DNA of 64,000 nt, taken from positions 21,169 through 85,168 of the IMG/VR virus record IMGVR_UViG_3300046810_000466; one strand, 5' to 3'. This document shows positions 3,756-57,012 of this stretch, piece by piece. The notes beneath the pieces were generated by a model. It was not told where the DNA came from, did no database searches, and saw only the letters and a list, made by a program, of their open reading frames with translations. The DNA comes from a virus. Made by a program: the position numbers and the translations under genes. The first letter of the stretch is position 1, and every line of letters starts with the position of its first letter.

Positions 3756-5150
3756 TTAGGCGGCCGCTTCAGCAGGCTTGGCGCCTTCAGCGGGTTTGGC
3801 TTCTTCTTTCTTTGGGGCGGCGCCGTACTGCTTCAGCGATTGCTCGCCGTATTGCAGGACGTAGCTGCCGGCGTTCAGCACGAAAGCGGCGATCGGAGGC
3901 GCAGCGTTGACCACCATGGACATGGCGCCCTTGGCGATAGCGCGAGCGTCGGCGTCAGCGATGGCGCCTTCAACTGGTTTGCCGTCGGCACCCTTGCCGC
4001 CTTCTTTGGCTTTCTTCTCGGCAGCAGCGATCACTGCGCTAGCAGCGGTCTCGGCTTCCTTCTGGGCTTTCTTGTAGCCCAGCACCAGGTCGGCGGCTTC
4101 GGAGATCTTCTTGGCAGCGGTGCCGACGTCGACAGCCGACAGGGTTGGCAGTTGGGTCTTGTCCGCTACTTTCTTCGACGCATCGAACACGCCCAGCTTG
4201 TAGCCGGCCTTGCCGATTGCTGCAGCACTGGTGCCGTCGGATGGGATGGTTGCGATCACAGCCTTGTTACCTGGCAGCGCTTCGCCTTTCCACAGTTCCA
4301 GACCTTCGCCAGGTGCCGAGGCGCCGACCGATGCTGGGTCGCCGACTTTGGTGAAGCCTTGGCCGGTCATCTTACGCGCTTCAGCGGTCAGGAAGGACAG
4401 GGCGTCAGCGCCGCCTTGTTCGATCGACTTGGCAGCGCCGGTGGCGAAGCTGGCAGCGTGGTTAGCCATGGCCGACAGGACAGATGCTTCTTGCACGATG
4501 GCTTGTGCGGCGGCGCCGACGTTGACGGTACCGTTGATGTGCAGGTTTTCAGCCAGCTTCTGGCTTTCGAAGGTCTTCGAGGTGGCTTCACCTTTGGTCG
4601 CGCCGGCGGCGGAGACGACCTTGTCAGCACGGGCCTTCATCTTGGTAGCGGTGTCGAAAATGCGGTTCCAGATGGCAACGATGGCTTTGGCCGCATTGCG
4701 GAACATTTCCAGGATCGCGCCCCACAGCTCGCCGGCTTTCTCGGCCAGGCCTTCAGCGGACAGCTGGGTGGTGCCAGCACGGCCGGCGGTGCCGCCGAAC
4801 GATTCGACCGACAGGGTCTTGTGGTTTTCGGGCAGACCCAGGCGACGGTTCCAGGATGCGTGCATTTGGTTCAGCAGGATGGCGCCGTTGCGGTCCAGGC
4901 CGCCGTTGGAGGCGATGATGCGCAGCGATTCGGTGGCGGCTTCCATTTCACCAGCAACTTCAGCAGCGGCGTCGACGGCGCCTTCGGTGTTGTCGATTTC
5001 GACGATGTCGTTGTTCACTTCGACCAGATCGGCTTCCAGGCTATCGGCACCGGCTTCGATCGGCGCTGCCGGCGCTTCTTCGCCCGGTGGTACTGCTACT
5101 GCTTCGATTTCTTCACGTGCCAGATTGGCGTAGATACGGTGGTTACGCAT
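3756..5150 (-). CDS. Internal head protein paralog C, Ala-rich
   Basis: 464 aa with start at 5150 behind GGGAG. A roughly 110-residue acidic leader ends in LSVE (113-116), followed by LSAE (130-133), both candidate maturation cuts. The amphipathic block ELWGAILEMFRN...IVAIWNRIF follows directly, as in paralogs A, B and D. The rest is alanine- and lysine-rich, with helical stretches and a C-terminal tail AKPAEGAKPAEAAA. I infer a proteolytically matured internal head protein. GC-rich codon choice suggests high expression. Confidence 0.7.
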   Translation of the reverse strand: MRNHRIYANLAREEIEAVAVPPGEEAPAAPIEAGADSLEADLVEVNNDIVEIDNTEGAVDAAAEVAGEMEAATESLRIIASNGGLDRNGAILLNQMHASWNRRLGLPENHKTLSVESFGGTAGRAGTTQLSAEGLAEKAGELWGAILEMFRNAAKAIVAIWNRIFDTATKMKARADKVVSAAGATKGEATSKTFESQKLAENLHINGTVNVGAAAQAIVQEASVLSAMANHAASFATGAAKSIEQGGADALSFLTAEARKMTGQGFTKVGDPASVGASAPGEGLELWKGEALPGNKAVIATIPSDGTSAAAIGKAGYKLGVFDASKKVADKTQLPTLSAVDVGTAAKKISEAADLVLGYKKAQKEAETAASAVIAAAEKKAKEGGKGADGKPVEGAIADADARAIAKGAMSMVVNAAPPIAAFVLNAGSYVLQYGEQSLKQYGAAPKKEEAKPAEGAKPAEAAA

Positions 5151-30627: not shown

Positions 30628-30966
30628 ATGTCCATCAATGACCTGCTGATTGACATGGGTCCAGATATCTACTACGATCCAAACTTCCGCAACGTCTTGG
30701 AAGACCACATGACGTTCTTACGCACCCATCCAAAGACAGCGTTGTTCACACTCACACCGGACGAGGCATACCAGTGGCGTGGCGATTTGTTTGGTCTGTT
30801 GCTTGCAAAGAATCGTCCAGCACAATTCCACTGGCTGATCATGCGTTTGAACAATTACACGTCTCCTACCCAGTTCAAACAAGATACAATCGGCCTGATC
30901 GAACCTGACTACACAGTCGTAGACAAGATTCGCCAAAGCAACAATAGTTCAGGGCGCATCAGCTAA
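30628..30966 (+). CDS. Unknown 112-aa protein
   Basis: Start behind CGAGGTG. Small acidic helical protein starting MSINDLLIDMGP; no domain recognised. It is an isolated plus-strand gene inside a long minus-strand block, divergent from the RNAP beta gene and ended by a bidirectional terminator, so it forms its own transcript. Confidence 0.8.
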   Translation: MSINDLLIDMGPDIYYDPNFRNVLEDHMTFLRTHPKTALFTLTPDEAYQWRGDLFGLLLAKNRPAQFHWLIMRLNNYTSPTQFKQDTIGLIEPDYTVVDKIRQSNNSSGRIS

Positions 30967-31020
30967 TAAGTCTGCTGGATCTTTTTTAACTATATAGAGA
31001 AAAAATTAAGGCAGAGAAGA

Positions 31021-31053
31021 ACCAACACCACCCTAACACTGGGTGGTGTTGGT
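31021..31053. terminator. Bidirectional terminator
   Basis: ACCAACACCACCC and GGGTGGTGTTGGT form a perfect 13-bp stem, followed by TCTTATTTATGCCG (constant arm 31060-31066), between convergent genes. Confidence 0.85.
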
Positions 31054-31075
31054 CTTATTTATGCCGTTTCAGCAA

Positions 31076-32386
31076 TTAGTAACGACGACCGCCGCCGTAG
31101 CCACCGCTAGCTGGTGGTGGATAGCCACCCTGCGTTGGACCGGACGACGGATAGCCGTAACCACCTTGAACCTGACGGCTACCGCCGCCACGAGCCATCG
31201 AGTTGTGCATCATGCCGCTGACGCTCACCGTGTTACCGTGGCCACCAGATACCGGTGCGCCACGCTGTGGCGCTGGGTAACCCGTGCTTTGTGGGCTTGG
31301 GTAACCGCCGCCGGTTTGACGTGGCGCTGGATCTTCCCACGGTGCCGGAGCACGCGCTGCTTGATGCTGCTGGGGGCGATTGGCTTGCGGTGCTGCAACG
31401 GCTGCCACCGGCACAGGTTCTTCGATGACACCCTGGCTTTGTGCGGGGATCGCGCGGATTTGCGGCCACAGCACGTCCAGGTTTTCGAAGGCTTCGGCCC
31501 AGTCCAGATCGAACGTCATTTCTTCCAGAGAACGATCCATGCGGGGATCGAGACCCTTGAACACTTCCATCACGTCGTTCAGATGACGTGCCATCGGCAG
31601 GAAGGCGCGCATCATCGCGTCCATTGCCGGAGCGATACGGGAATTGCTGCCCAGATCGTAGGCGTGCTTGGTGTCCAGATTCGGGATCAGGTATTGCATC
31701 AGGCCGAGGAATGCCGAACGGTCTTTACCACGCAGCTTCACGCCGAAGACTTCCGATTCAGGCTTGGTGCCTTTCTTCGCTTTCGGCGCTGCTTTGTGTT
31801 CAGCCAGTTCTTCTTCCAGCTTGTGCAGTTCTTCGAAGAACGGGAAGTTCACCGAAGCCACACGGTTGTACGACTTGCCGTCCAGGACTGCCGCCGGACG
31901 AACGTACAGTGTCGTAAACACACGTTGCAGTTGATTTGGCTTGGCTGCCAGCTCCGAGATCTTGTCGAAGGCATCGGCCGCGTCGGTGTCTGCTTCAACC
32001 ACCAGCTGCATGAACTCGGCTTGGTCTGGCTTCAGACGTTTGCACAGTTCTTTGTCCGCAGCGATACGCAGCAGCGAAGTACCCAGGCCGCCGATTACGA
32101 TGTTGATGCGGTTGATCGCCCAGTGACGGTAACGCGTCATCAGGTCGGTCGAGTTGGCTTTGGCTGCGGAGGTTTCGCTCAGCAGGTGGAATACTTCGTG
32201 TTCGTTAACGCGAGCATCGCGCAGACGTTCCACCAACGGCAACACCACCGGTTTACCATCTTTGGCAATCACAGGCAGGTATTCACCTTCGCCGATGTCC
32301 ATACGGAAGTAACCATCATCCGTCACCTCCATAGCCGTGAATGCAGCCATCGAACGATAAACGTCCAGGAGTTGAATACTTTCCAT
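31076..32386 (-). CDS. Protein with Gly/Pro/Gln/Tyr-rich tail ending RRY (phiKZ gp70 position)
   Basis: 436 aa. Residues 1-300 are a helical globular domain. The last 130 are low complexity (repeated GGYP, PSPQ, GGYGGG), very likely disordered, ending GGGRRY. The neighbour at 32438 ends SGKRY and the shell protein ends HTRKY, so three gene products share a basic-basic-Tyr C-terminus. By order relative to the RNAP genes it sits where phiKZ gp70 lies; function unknown. Association with the phage nucleus is inference. Confidence 0.7.
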   Translation of the reverse strand: MESIQLLDVYRSMAAFTAMEVTDDGYFRMDIGEGEYLPVIAKDGKPVVLPLVERLRDARVNEHEVFHLLSETSAAKANSTDLMTRYRHWAINRINIVIGGLGTSLLRIAADKELCKRLKPDQAEFMQLVVEADTDAADAFDKISELAAKPNQLQRVFTTLYVRPAAVLDGKSYNRVASVNFPFFEELHKLEEELAEHKAAPKAKKGTKPESEVFGVKLRGKDRSAFLGLMQYLIPNLDTKHAYDLGSNSRIAPAMDAMMRAFLPMARHLNDVMEVFKGLDPRMDRSLEEMTFDLDWAEAFENLDVLWPQIRAIPAQSQGVIEEPVPVAAVAAPQANRPQQHQAARAPAPWEDPAPRQTGGGYPSPQSTGYPAPQRGAPVSGGHGNTVSVSGMMHNSMARGGGSRQVQGGYGYPSSGPTQGGYPPPASGGYGGGRRY

Positions 32387-53646: not shown

Positions 53647-53742
53647 AGGTGGTCCTTTGAGGGTCTTCTGGTATACAATACCCAGCCGAGGTAAAATAAA
53701 GCCTACAGCGCGTTTAAACGCGTGACGGCATAAAAAGAAAAG

Positions 53743-53789
53743 CACACTTAACTATACAGTTCTCTTGCGAGAAGGGATAGTTAAGTGTG
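53743..53789 (-). terminator. Intrinsic terminator at 3' end of phuZ/ncRNA transcript
   Basis: CACACTTAACTAT and ATAGTTAAGTGTG form a perfect 13-bp stem. On the minus strand it is followed by CTTTTCTTTTTATGCCG, a U-rich tract plus constant arm. Confidence 0.8.
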
Positions 53790-54117
53790 ATGAAAGAACC
53801 GATGACTTCTTCTTCACAGGGCTAGCTATAGACTAGCCCACAGCTTCCATACACCGGATCTTTCATGCTCATTCGCTTAACGTCCGATGATCCCATCCTG
53901 TCGTAGACTCAACCGGCACATTGAAGGGCCGTTGGAATACGAAACAAGGTGGCGAGACTCGGACAAGGCGCCACACAGGCTAGCCTAATAAACGCGTAAA
54001 GACGCGAGTGGGAGGGTTGGCGAAATCGCTCAAGGACGCTGGCTTTCAAAGCCCTTAACTCTGAGCCAGCGTCCCTTAGGGACAGTTCGGGACTGTGGGG
54101 TCTGGAGACGCCCACTG
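53790..54117 (-). ncRNA. Candidate structured non-coding RNA downstream of phuZ
   Basis: About 330 bases with at least six stems. ATGAAAGA (53790) pairs with TCTTTCAT (53859), enclosing GGGCTAG/CTAGCCC (53819, 53833). GTGGCG/CGCCAC are at 53949/53969, CGCGT/ACGCG at 53993/54002, GGACGCTGGCT/AGCCAGCGTCC at 54034/54064, ACAGT/ACTGT at 54082/54092, and GTGGG/CCCAC at 54095/54111. A terminator with U tract on the minus strand follows at 53743-53789, so the minus strand is the likelier transcript, either as phuZ 3' UTR or a processed RNA. No coding potential was seen over most of it. The plus strand has some class II tRNA-like features but not a valid tRNA. Confidence 0.5.
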
Positions 54118-54311
54118 AATCGAGGACAGCAGTCCACCTCGAGCAGATAATGATCGTAAAGACCAATCTGCACAGGAAGGATCAAGTCGCTGGCGTCGAA
54201 GACTTCAAGGACTGGTTGAACCAGACCCTGCATTCCCGTCGCGAGCAGTGCTTCTGCTATCCGTCGCCCTAAACCACTACCACCGCACCCAATCAAGAGA
54301 ACGGTGGTCAC
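54030..54311 (-). CDS. Doubtful ORF with Rossmann-like N-terminus
   Basis: 93 codons from a GTG six bases past the phuZ stop, without a ribosome site. The first 45 residues (VLLIGCGGSGLGRRIAEALL) look like a dinucleotide-binding GxGGxG fold. From about residue 62 the frame reads through the hairpin-rich DNA and is not protein-like. It may be a decayed gene fragment or coincidence. Confidence 0.25.
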   Translation of the reverse strand: MTTVLLIGCGGSGLGRRIAEALLATGMQGLVQPVLEVFDASDLILPVQIGLYDHYLLEVDCCPRFSGRLQTPQSRTVPKGRWLRVKGFESQRP

Positions 54312-54314
54312 GTA

Positions 54315-55355
54315 TTACAGCACCAGGCCAGTGTTGTCGACCTTGTCGGTGTTCGACAGGATCGAGGTCTTCGGCGGACGCGACTCGGCAGCTTGAGTCA
54401 GATCGCTCAGGAAACCGTTCAGGCCCTTGGTGAACTGCGGCAGCAGGCCGTCGGAGATGACGTAGCTGATGACCTTGCCAGCCAGCTGTTCGCCGCCGTC
54501 CTTGATCTGCGGCAGGATACCAACGGTCTGGTACTCCGGCGCTTGCGGCAGGTCGGTGTTCACGCCTTCAGGCGCCAGCGTTGCCACCGAAATGATGTTA
54601 CCCAGCTTGGCCAGGTCGCTTTTCATTTCGGTGTTGTCGCCGTCGGCTTGGTCGTGCCAGAGGATGGTCAGCACCGCCAGCTGGGCGCCGAACGAGGTCA
54701 GGCCGTCTTTGCTGAAGTTCAACCAGTTCTGCAGATCCTTGGTGTCCAGTTCGCGGTTGCGACGCGAGTAGAGCATGCCCAGGTAGCTGATGGTCGAGAT
54801 CATCGACTGGTCAACTTTGGCACGGATCAGCGTCGGCGAGTTCTGCAGATAATGCATCACCACCGGCATGTCGCGTTTCTGGGAGATCGCTTCGTAGGTT
54901 TTCAGCGTCTTCAGGGTGTTCTCGGCTTCCAGCTTGGAAGCGGTCGAACCGACCATCAGGATGATAACGGCCACGCCGCGAGCCAGCAGTTCGGACGCCA
55001 GCAGTGGACCGATAACCGAACCGGAGCCGCCGGCGCCGGAGGACAGGATGATGTTCAGGTCGCCTGGCTTGTGCTGTTGCAGGATATCTTTGACGCGTTC
55101 GGCGATGGCGCCGCTGTTTTCGGAACGTACTTTACCGGAGCCGTCCAGGCCTTCGACCAGATAGCACTCGGCTTCACGGGAATGGGCGGACAGGTTCGAG
55201 CGGCTGGTGTCAACCAGAACCACTTCGAAGTCGGAAACCAGGTCACGGTTCACGGTGGTGTTCTTCAGACCGGCTACGATGTTGATGGCTGCACCGCCGC
55301 AGGCGTAGATGCGGGTACGACCTTTAGCAGGGGTTTGAGTAACTACTTGGTTCAT
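54315..55355 (-). CDS. phuZ: Phage tubulin/FtsZ-like cytoskeletal GTPase (PhuZ)
   Basis: 346 aa from MNQVVTQTPAKG at 55355, behind AAAAGGAT. ACGGAAINIVAGL matches the N-terminal GxGGxGxN nucleotide loop, and SSGAGGSGSVIGPLLASELL matches the tubulin/FtsZ signature GGGTGTG. Length fits phage tubulins (about 315-325) with an extended C-terminal tail. In phiKZ-like phages PhuZ forms a bipolar spindle that centres the phage nucleus and carries capsids. An AT-rich box TATAAGAATATAC (55424-55436) lies about 70 bp upstream. Confidence 0.85.
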   Translation of the reverse strand: MNQVVTQTPAKGRTRIYACGGAAINIVAGLKNTTVNRDLVSDFEVVLVDTSRSNLSAHSREAECYLVEGLDGSGKVRSENSGAIAERVKDILQQHKPGDLNIILSSGAGGSGSVIGPLLASELLARGVAVIILMVGSTASKLEAENTLKTLKTYEAISQKRDMPVVMHYLQNSPTLIRAKVDQSMISTISYLGMLYSRRNRELDTKDLQNWLNFSKDGLTSFGAQLAVLTILWHDQADGDNTEMKSDLAKLGNIISVATLAPEGVNTDLPQAPEYQTVGILPQIKDGGEQLAGKVISYVISDGLLPQFTKGLNGFLSDLTQAAESRPPKTSILSNTDKVDNTGLVL

Positions 55356-55474: not shown

Positions 55475-56929
55475 TTAGGAGTGCATCTGTTTACTGAGCA
55501 TCAGCGGACCGCCCAGTTCGGACAGCATTTCCACGGCGTTTACGTTTGGCACCATACGCAGGGGATGTGGCGTGATACCGCTACGCGACAACGTTTGCAG
55601 GATAGGCATCGGCACAGGACCTTCCTCGAACTCAGTTTGCATCAGGAAGTGTGTCGAATACTCCGAACGAGAATTCCGGATCACCACATCCGCCAATTCT
55701 TGATCGGAGAAGCCGGCCGCAGGATGACGGATTACGACGAGATTAGCTGCCGTCAAGAACTTTTGGATCAGCTCCGTTGCAGTGTTAATGCGATCGTCAT
55801 CTGCTGCTTCTGGCGCATGCAGGAACACGGCGCCGACGTATTGCGCACATAAGTTTTCGTAAGGATGAATCGGCGATGCATTCGGGGTAATCCCAGCCGG
55901 GAAGTCAGGGCGCGCCGAATTCAACTCCACGAAGGTGTTACGCAAGAATTCCACCGAAGTGGGACGGTAGTCAATACCTTTGGCGTCCAGCGCTTTCCGC
56001 ATATCCGATACCGGCATAGACGGTGTCCTGTATTGCGCCTCCGACATGATCACGAAGTGACGGAACTTCGTATTAGGACTGGCTGCCGCTTGCGGCAGCT
56101 GCGCCCCGCAGAGTAAGCCAACTGGTTGAACAACAACATAACGTGTTGGCACGAACTGGTTCTCGAAGCTAGGGCCGCCGCCTAATACATGGATGCCGCC
56201 GCCTTCCAGGAATTTAACCAGCTCCGTCTGCGCTGCGTCGTCCTCGACAAACAGCTGGACCACCTCAACCTTCTTTGGTCCGAATTGTTGGTTGAACCCG
56301 GGACGAACAGGAACAGCGAAACGATTCAGATCTTGGTCATACGGCCATTGCCGGCTGCGACCAGAGAAAGTCTGGAAACCATATCCAGGATGGCCATTCC
56401 GCGACAATGTCGCGTAGGTGTCGTACGGAGGCAGCATTTGGATAGCGGTCTCCACGGTAGCCAGCGCCGTGCGCAGTTGGTTGTGCACCTGAGCGAGGTC
56501 AGTTTCCGTCTTAGGTTTGTAGTTTGGCACACCGCGCAGGAACCACTTAGTCACTGCTGAAATGAATGTATCCACAGCGTGCATGCGGTGGCTTGCACTC
56601 AATGGGATCGGAATGCAAATGACCGTTTCCTTGAGGTTGCTACGCTCAAACTGCTGGATGATTGCATCCCGGCTATATGCCGAATGCGGCATAGTGGAAT
56701 CGTAAACGATCAGGTGGATGGTCTCAGGATGATGCGAGTGATCTTCGATCCAAGCCAGCTCGGCACCGTTCGATGGCGCTTCATACGCCACCACAGTGCC
56801 GCCCCGATCTGCCAGTTCGTTGATCCATGCTTTAGCTTGCGGGGAACTTTCAATAAGAAGATCGGCGAATTGTTTGCCGATAAAGATTATGTTGAGTACT
56901 TTAATTGGGCGGGTTACAGATTTATTCAT
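55475..56929 (-). CDS. Unknown 484-aa protein upstream of phuZ
   Basis: Starts MNKSVTRPIKVL at 56929, chosen over 56950 because AAAAAAGGATATC precedes it. N-terminal alpha/beta domain (KVLNIIFIGKQFADLLIES, strand-helix like a Rossmann or receiver fold, without diagnostic residues), Pro-rich middle, and a second alpha/beta half. No family recognised. The early-type promoter box 89 bp upstream suggests early expression, perhaps with phuZ. Confidence 0.75.
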   Translation of the reverse strand: MNKSVTRPIKVLNIIFIGKQFADLLIESSPQAKAWINELADRGGTVVAYEAPSNGAELAWIEDHSHHPETIHLIVYDSTMPHSAYSRDAIIQQFERSNLKETVICIPIPLSASHRMHAVDTFISAVTKWFLRGVPNYKPKTETDLAQVHNQLRTALATVETAIQMLPPYDTYATLSRNGHPGYGFQTFSGRSRQWPYDQDLNRFAVPVRPGFNQQFGPKKVEVVQLFVEDDAAQTELVKFLEGGGIHVLGGGPSFENQFVPTRYVVVQPVGLLCGAQLPQAAASPNTKFRHFVIMSEAQYRTPSMPVSDMRKALDAKGIDYRPTSVEFLRNTFVELNSARPDFPAGITPNASPIHPYENLCAQYVGAVFLHAPEAADDDRINTATELIQKFLTAANLVVIRHPAAGFSDQELADVVIRNSRSEYSTHFLMQTEFEEGPVPMPILQTLSRSGITPHPLRMVPNVNAVEMLSELGGPLMLSKQMHS

Positions 56930-57012
56930 GGTGATATCCTTTTTGTTCATTGTTAATAGTGGGAATCTCGTAGGTGGTCGAGACAGATGCTATGTGCTAT
57001 CGCTGCATCTCA

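Follow-up and report, generated by a model that had tools for sequence, protein, structure and literature searches.

Grad-seq of phage phiKZ revealed two short phage noncoding RNAs (ncRNAs), one of them from a 3' UTR (PMC8545117). The ncRNA derived from the PHIKZ298 3' UTR is about 100 nt long, has two stems and a possible intrinsic terminator, and was confirmed by Northern blotting (PMC8545117). This phiKZ Grad-seq work is also what the ncRNA passage of a 2026 jumbo-phage review cites (PMC13282480). No description of an RNA behind phuZ, the gene for the phage tubulin, was found in the open-access literature. The RNA considered here, in the 64-kb stretch of viral DNA analyzed (hereafter, the window), is predicted from the sequence. 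Like the PHIKZ298 ncRNA shown by Northern blotting, it belongs to a nucleus-forming phage, lies behind a stop codon and ends at a terminator. Unlike it, the window RNA follows another gene, is several hundred nt long and has at least six conserved helices. In being long and built of many helices, it resembles the large ornate RNAs GOLLD, ROOL and OLE, some of which occur in phages (PMC12286853). In contrast to these, it is shorter, is tied to phuZ and a small open reading frame (ORF) and has no match in Rfam. The search of Rfam 15 (including GOLLD, ROOL, introns, tmRNA and RNase P) gave no match at the gathering score, and at E <= 10 there were only chance-level matches to miRNA, snoRNA and isrK families, far below gathering. 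ARAGORN detected no tRNA or tmRNA. Some bacterial RNAs, e.g., RNAIII of Staphylococcus aureus and SgrS, have a dual function; they are a few hundred nt long, structured and hold a small ORF. The window RNA, known from sequence alone, shares the size range, the structure and the small ORF, whereas no sequence relation to either RNA was found.

Structure and strand of the island

The upstream gene, phuZ (54315-55355, minus strand), was assigned to PHROG 4733 (tubulin PhuZ, E = 1.1e-82), and its product is 38% identical to PhuZ of Burkholderia phage FLC9 and of Xanthomonas phage LucasX. Farther upstream, between phuZ and a DUF7484 gene, a 491-aa protein is encoded (55475-56950, minus strand) that had no Pfam or PHROG match. 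The island lies behind the phuZ stop codon on the same strand, its 3' boundary is an intrinsic terminator, and the spacer of the next gene adjoins this terminator directly.

Over 53735-54311, the minus-strand folding energy is -244.3 kcal/mol, with z = -9.0 against dinucleotide shuffles, and the plus strand reaches z = -6.0. With minus-strand segments of 290 nt taken from the whole 64 kb as background (z = -1.5 +/- 1.5, n = 149), the two island halves had z values of -6.5 and -5.2, and phuZ appeared ordinary (z = -0.5 and -1.4). The island hairpins are real and far past what chance would give. An initial annotation of this DNA had proposed a hairpin-rich RNA here, and every stem that it named could be found: the 53790/53859 stem (15 nt, 87% paired) with an inner 7-bp hairpin at 53819-53839, the 54034/54064 stem (19 nt, 84% paired) and the 13-bp terminator stem (53743-53755/53777-53789). 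The U-rich tract that it had placed after this terminator, on the minus strand, is CTTTTCTTTTT, i.e., the tail lies on the phuZ strand. The core of the island holds 21 G-U wobbles versus 2 A-C pairs, and thus, it is the phuZ-sense strand that folds.

Reading from phuZ along the minus strand, a small ORF of 93 codons (54030-54311) begins with GTG 3 nt past the phuZ stop, and within its 3' end lies the conserved hairpin H1 (54034-54074), which is the 11-bp stem already seen in the initial annotation and has a UUAAGGG loop and a 3' AA bulge. Docking of this loop on the anti-Shine-Dalgarno of 16S rRNA was considered and rejected, with duplex energies hardly better than those of permuted loops. Next come P1 (CGCG-UCUUUA-CGCG, 53993-54006), at a position that matches CCGCUGCGUGCGG of the relatives described below; P2 (AGGCUAGCCUGUGUGGCGCCU, 53966-53986); and P3 (53882-53964), a domain formed by GUCCGAGUCU and GGGAUCAUCGGAC with a two-base bulge. 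A conserved unpaired element, GUUAAGCGAA (53872-53881), separates P3 from the long stem P5 (53790-53866, AUGAAAGAUCCGGUG/CAUCGGUUCUUUCAU), which encloses a GGGCUAG/CUAGCCC hairpin and was predicted for each sequence separately. The terminator (53732-53789), with its 13-bp stem, UUCUC/GAGA upper stem and U-rich tail, closes the island. The 290 nt from P1 to the terminator are outside the small ORF and as structured as the ORF half.

The motif TTTATGCCG is found four times in the window (2187, 31058, 49254 and 53726) and follows an intrinsic terminator at all three sites inspected (31058, 49254 and 53726); in the relatives, ATGCCG also follows the terminator. It may act as a promoter or terminator element of the phage. 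Another very strong terminator, with a ACCAACACCACCC stem, is located at 31020-31060 (structured stretch 30961), between genes at 30628-30966 (plus strand) and 31076-32386 (minus strand), and the adjoining gene is repetitive and GC rich.

Conservation in related phages

A similarity search with the island DNA in phage records gave chance matches only, and relatives were therefore sought through PhuZ. This gave 80 + 20 PhuZ loci of viral contigs, plus one reached via a DNA pattern, from which stretches behind phuZ were read. Five contigs (L007, L008, L009, L087 and L103; PhuZ 43-48% identical) carry an island of the window type. They have in common with the window GATNATCGGACGTTAA, P2, P3 and the type of terminator, which in the relatives is a similar hairpin (CACUUACCUAA...UUCUC). 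The order of helices is identical in the window and four relatives, each folded alone. The unpaired element reads GUUAARYGAA in the window, L007, L008, L009 and L087, with one additional A in L103. In L103 even the next gene is of a like kind (WILDINDFL versus WVLDINDYL in the window).

A covariance model built on the five relatives, with the window left out, found a single match in the 64-kb window, at 53865-54000 on the minus strand, modest in bits (31.8) and with an E value of 9.4e-8; it had no match elsewhere in the 85-kb virus contig from which the window comes. An R1 match in the L010 contig (E = 0.0026) falls within a 559-aa ORF and was discarded as chance.

In the core alignment, which comprises the six sequences of the window family only, 93% of cells pair, versus 32 to 47% in controls with slid partner columns, and 6 of 25 pairs show changes on both sides. 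P2 is 100% paired, with both-sided change in five of its seven pairs, and P3 keeps 95% of its pairs, with conserved G-U wobbles. In H1, 96.7% of cells are paired (19 to 46% in slid controls) and 6/10 pairs changed on both sides, although this hairpin was chosen by eye, and its counts therefore lean toward structure. The position of P5 is kept with a wholly different sequence (GGAGGGG/CCCCUCC in the relatives versus AUGAAAGAUCC/GGUUCUUUCAU in the window), as judged from single folds. Across the five other phage contigs, compensatory changes preserve the island structure. Lack of such changes in relatives, together with lack of a stable transcript, was one outcome that the initial annotation had named as refuting its proposal; they are present in both core and H1, and the covariation supports a structured minus-strand RNA with which the phuZ transcript ends.

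A small ORF overlapping the structure

The earlier statement that most of the island has no protein-like frame does not hold for 54311-54030, where the unannotated frame of 93 codons is open, as it is behind phuZ in the five relatives. In all of them and in the window, the frame is open from the phuZ stop through H1. ORF start and phuZ stop overlap (TAATG) in L007, L008, L009 and L103, and in L087 the start lies a few bases past the stop. In 6/6 members, the codon of the H1 loop is in phase with the ORF, which closes shortly after the loop in five of them and later in L009. H1 is thus an RNA structure that probably codes for protein as well.

The N-termini have in common a glycine-rich pattern reminiscent of beta-alpha-beta, which in the window looks like a Rossmann beta-alpha-beta (GCGGSG). 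Over codons 1-35, third-position bias appears in part of the pairwise comparisons and second-position change is low between L007 and L009; beyond codons 35-45 there is no coding bias. AlphaFold gave a low-confidence beta-alpha-beta for about residues 1-35 only (pLDDT 56-71), and the C-terminal third has no predicted fold and is poorly conserved as protein. The predicted product had no Pfam match. A presumed resemblance to Tryptophan-halogenase/ThiF proteins was dropped, given the missing Pfam match and the weak model.

Other RNAs behind phuZ

In the cultured phage FLC9, 770 nt behind phuZ are without annotated genes (LC667451.1, 7020-7789, minus strand). They hold an unannotated structured RNA of ~650 nt and a 75-codon ORF rich in W and basic residues (L003, 5030-5257 and 5005-5695). 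FLC9 and five metagenome sequences, a set of six nonidentical sequences, gave a consensus structure of 197 predicted pairs, the terminator included, with compensatory changes in 43 of the 197. The FLC9-type RNA is a second, better conserved RNA at the same place behind phuZ. Its ORF runs in frame through a hairpin with the loop UAAGGGA and shows third-position bias in codons 1-45. No homology between the window island and the FLC9 RNA was visible in MAFFT or BLAST sequence alignments.

Four other loci (L105, L106, L107 and L013) have an open frame that begins near the phuZ end and short in-frame hairpins with loops such as AAAAGGA, and their consensus fold is well below that of shuffled columns. 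The sets L071/L075 and L052/L056/L058/L070 also have folds beyond shuffled columns. The alignments of all three sets are small and partly very divergent, and they probably represent further RNA families at the place behind phuZ. It might be that the RNAs of the window, FLC9 and the L105-L107/L013 group all descend, with great divergence, from a single ancient RNA present in nucleus-forming phages. In this RNA, an ORF starting near the phuZ stop would pass through a hairpin whose purine-rich AAGG-type loop has 7-8 nt, and the long structured part behind it would act in trans during spindle or nucleus formation; we regard this reading as rather unlikely.

Many phuZ loci have short gaps behind the gene. 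In phiKZ the gap is only 54 nt, with no such RNA there, so the RNA is not universal and not needed by all PhuZ phages. The phiKZ "p40" 5' UTR ncRNA was ruled out as an RNA behind phuZ, as PHIKZ040 starts 54 nt after phuZ.

Several of the loci have other features at this place. Directly behind phuZ, TATAGTATGTAGA opens other structured gaps (L071 and L075 from 5988; L074 from 5997) and may be a promoter of the late type that drives a separate RNA. In L106 (about 4662-4920), and similarly in L107, the phuZ-linked RNA is followed by a gene whose product, judged by eye, resembles an acyl carrier protein (MSDKQQIEERVKAIV...DSLDEVEM). LucasX (L002, 5020-5220) and some metagenome phages (L037, L040 and L065) encode a small zinc-type protein with CxxC, of about 67 aa, behind phuZ.

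Possible roles of the RNA

Our preferred reading, to which we give a probability of roughly 70%, is that the island forms the 3'-terminal part of the transcript of the phuZ operon, in which the small ORF is joined by a long, structured RNA that acts as a stable 3' UTR or as a UTR-derived RNA. A single transcript would comprise phuZ, the small ORF and the RNA and would stop at the terminator. Its compact 3' part, about 300 nt long when counted from P1 and about 570 nt when the ORF is included, would shield this transcript from degradation, and the RNA would then either stay as 3' UTR or be cut free as a stable molecule with a role in trans. With the small ORF, such an RNA would have a dual function. 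The chief competitor of a trans role is one in cis only. There would then be no separate RNA, only a 3' UTR stabilizing or localizing the phuZ mRNA or aiding its export from the phage nucleus, e.g., via a phage RNA-binding protein. We hold this to be quite possible, if somewhat short of even odds: the island is behind phuZ in every member, with a terminator at its end and, in the window family, without an identified separate promoter, but its length and its sequence-specific unpaired motifs (GUUAARCGAA and UUAAGGG) exceed what stabilization needs, and TATAGTATGTAGA, with which some other structured gaps start, may give these a separate promoter.

The coding half of the island raises the question of whether the product is simply a protein of 60-95 aa, with the structure serving its translation (coupling, pausing or internal ribosome contact). 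The start that overlaps or abuts the phuZ stop, the conserved frame that continues through H1 in six sequences, and likewise in the FLC9 and L105-type families, the low second-position change between L007 and L009 (codons 1-35) and the third-position bias of the FLC9 type (codons 1-45) all agree with this. However, the loss of coding bias past codons 35-45, a C-terminal part that is neither well conserved nor predicted to fold and an equally structured 3' stretch of 290 nt outside the ORF make it improbable as the whole explanation. That protein character is lost after a GxGGxG-like N-terminus could also suggest what is left of a longer gene of the Rossmann type, or else the remnant of a mobile intron or ribozyme. 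Yet the compensatory changes indicate that pairing is under present selection, no Rfam intron or ribozyme matched even at E = 10, and there is no second exon behind the island, which leaves this origin very improbable. Equally remote is that the inverted repeats act as DNA (an origin, recombination or packaging site); both strands do fold better than shuffled, but G-U pairs are conserved on one strand only, which also bears the U-tailed terminator and is always phuZ-sense.

Structured RNAs of nucleus-forming phages have hardly been described, with two short ones in phiKZ. Here, a conserved RNA of several hundred nt lies beside the spindle gene and has an unannotated counterpart in the cultured Burkholderia phage FLC9, which allows the question of RNA elements in the biology of the phage nucleus to be tested directly. 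It is also a warning that small ORFs and RNAs are being overlooked together.
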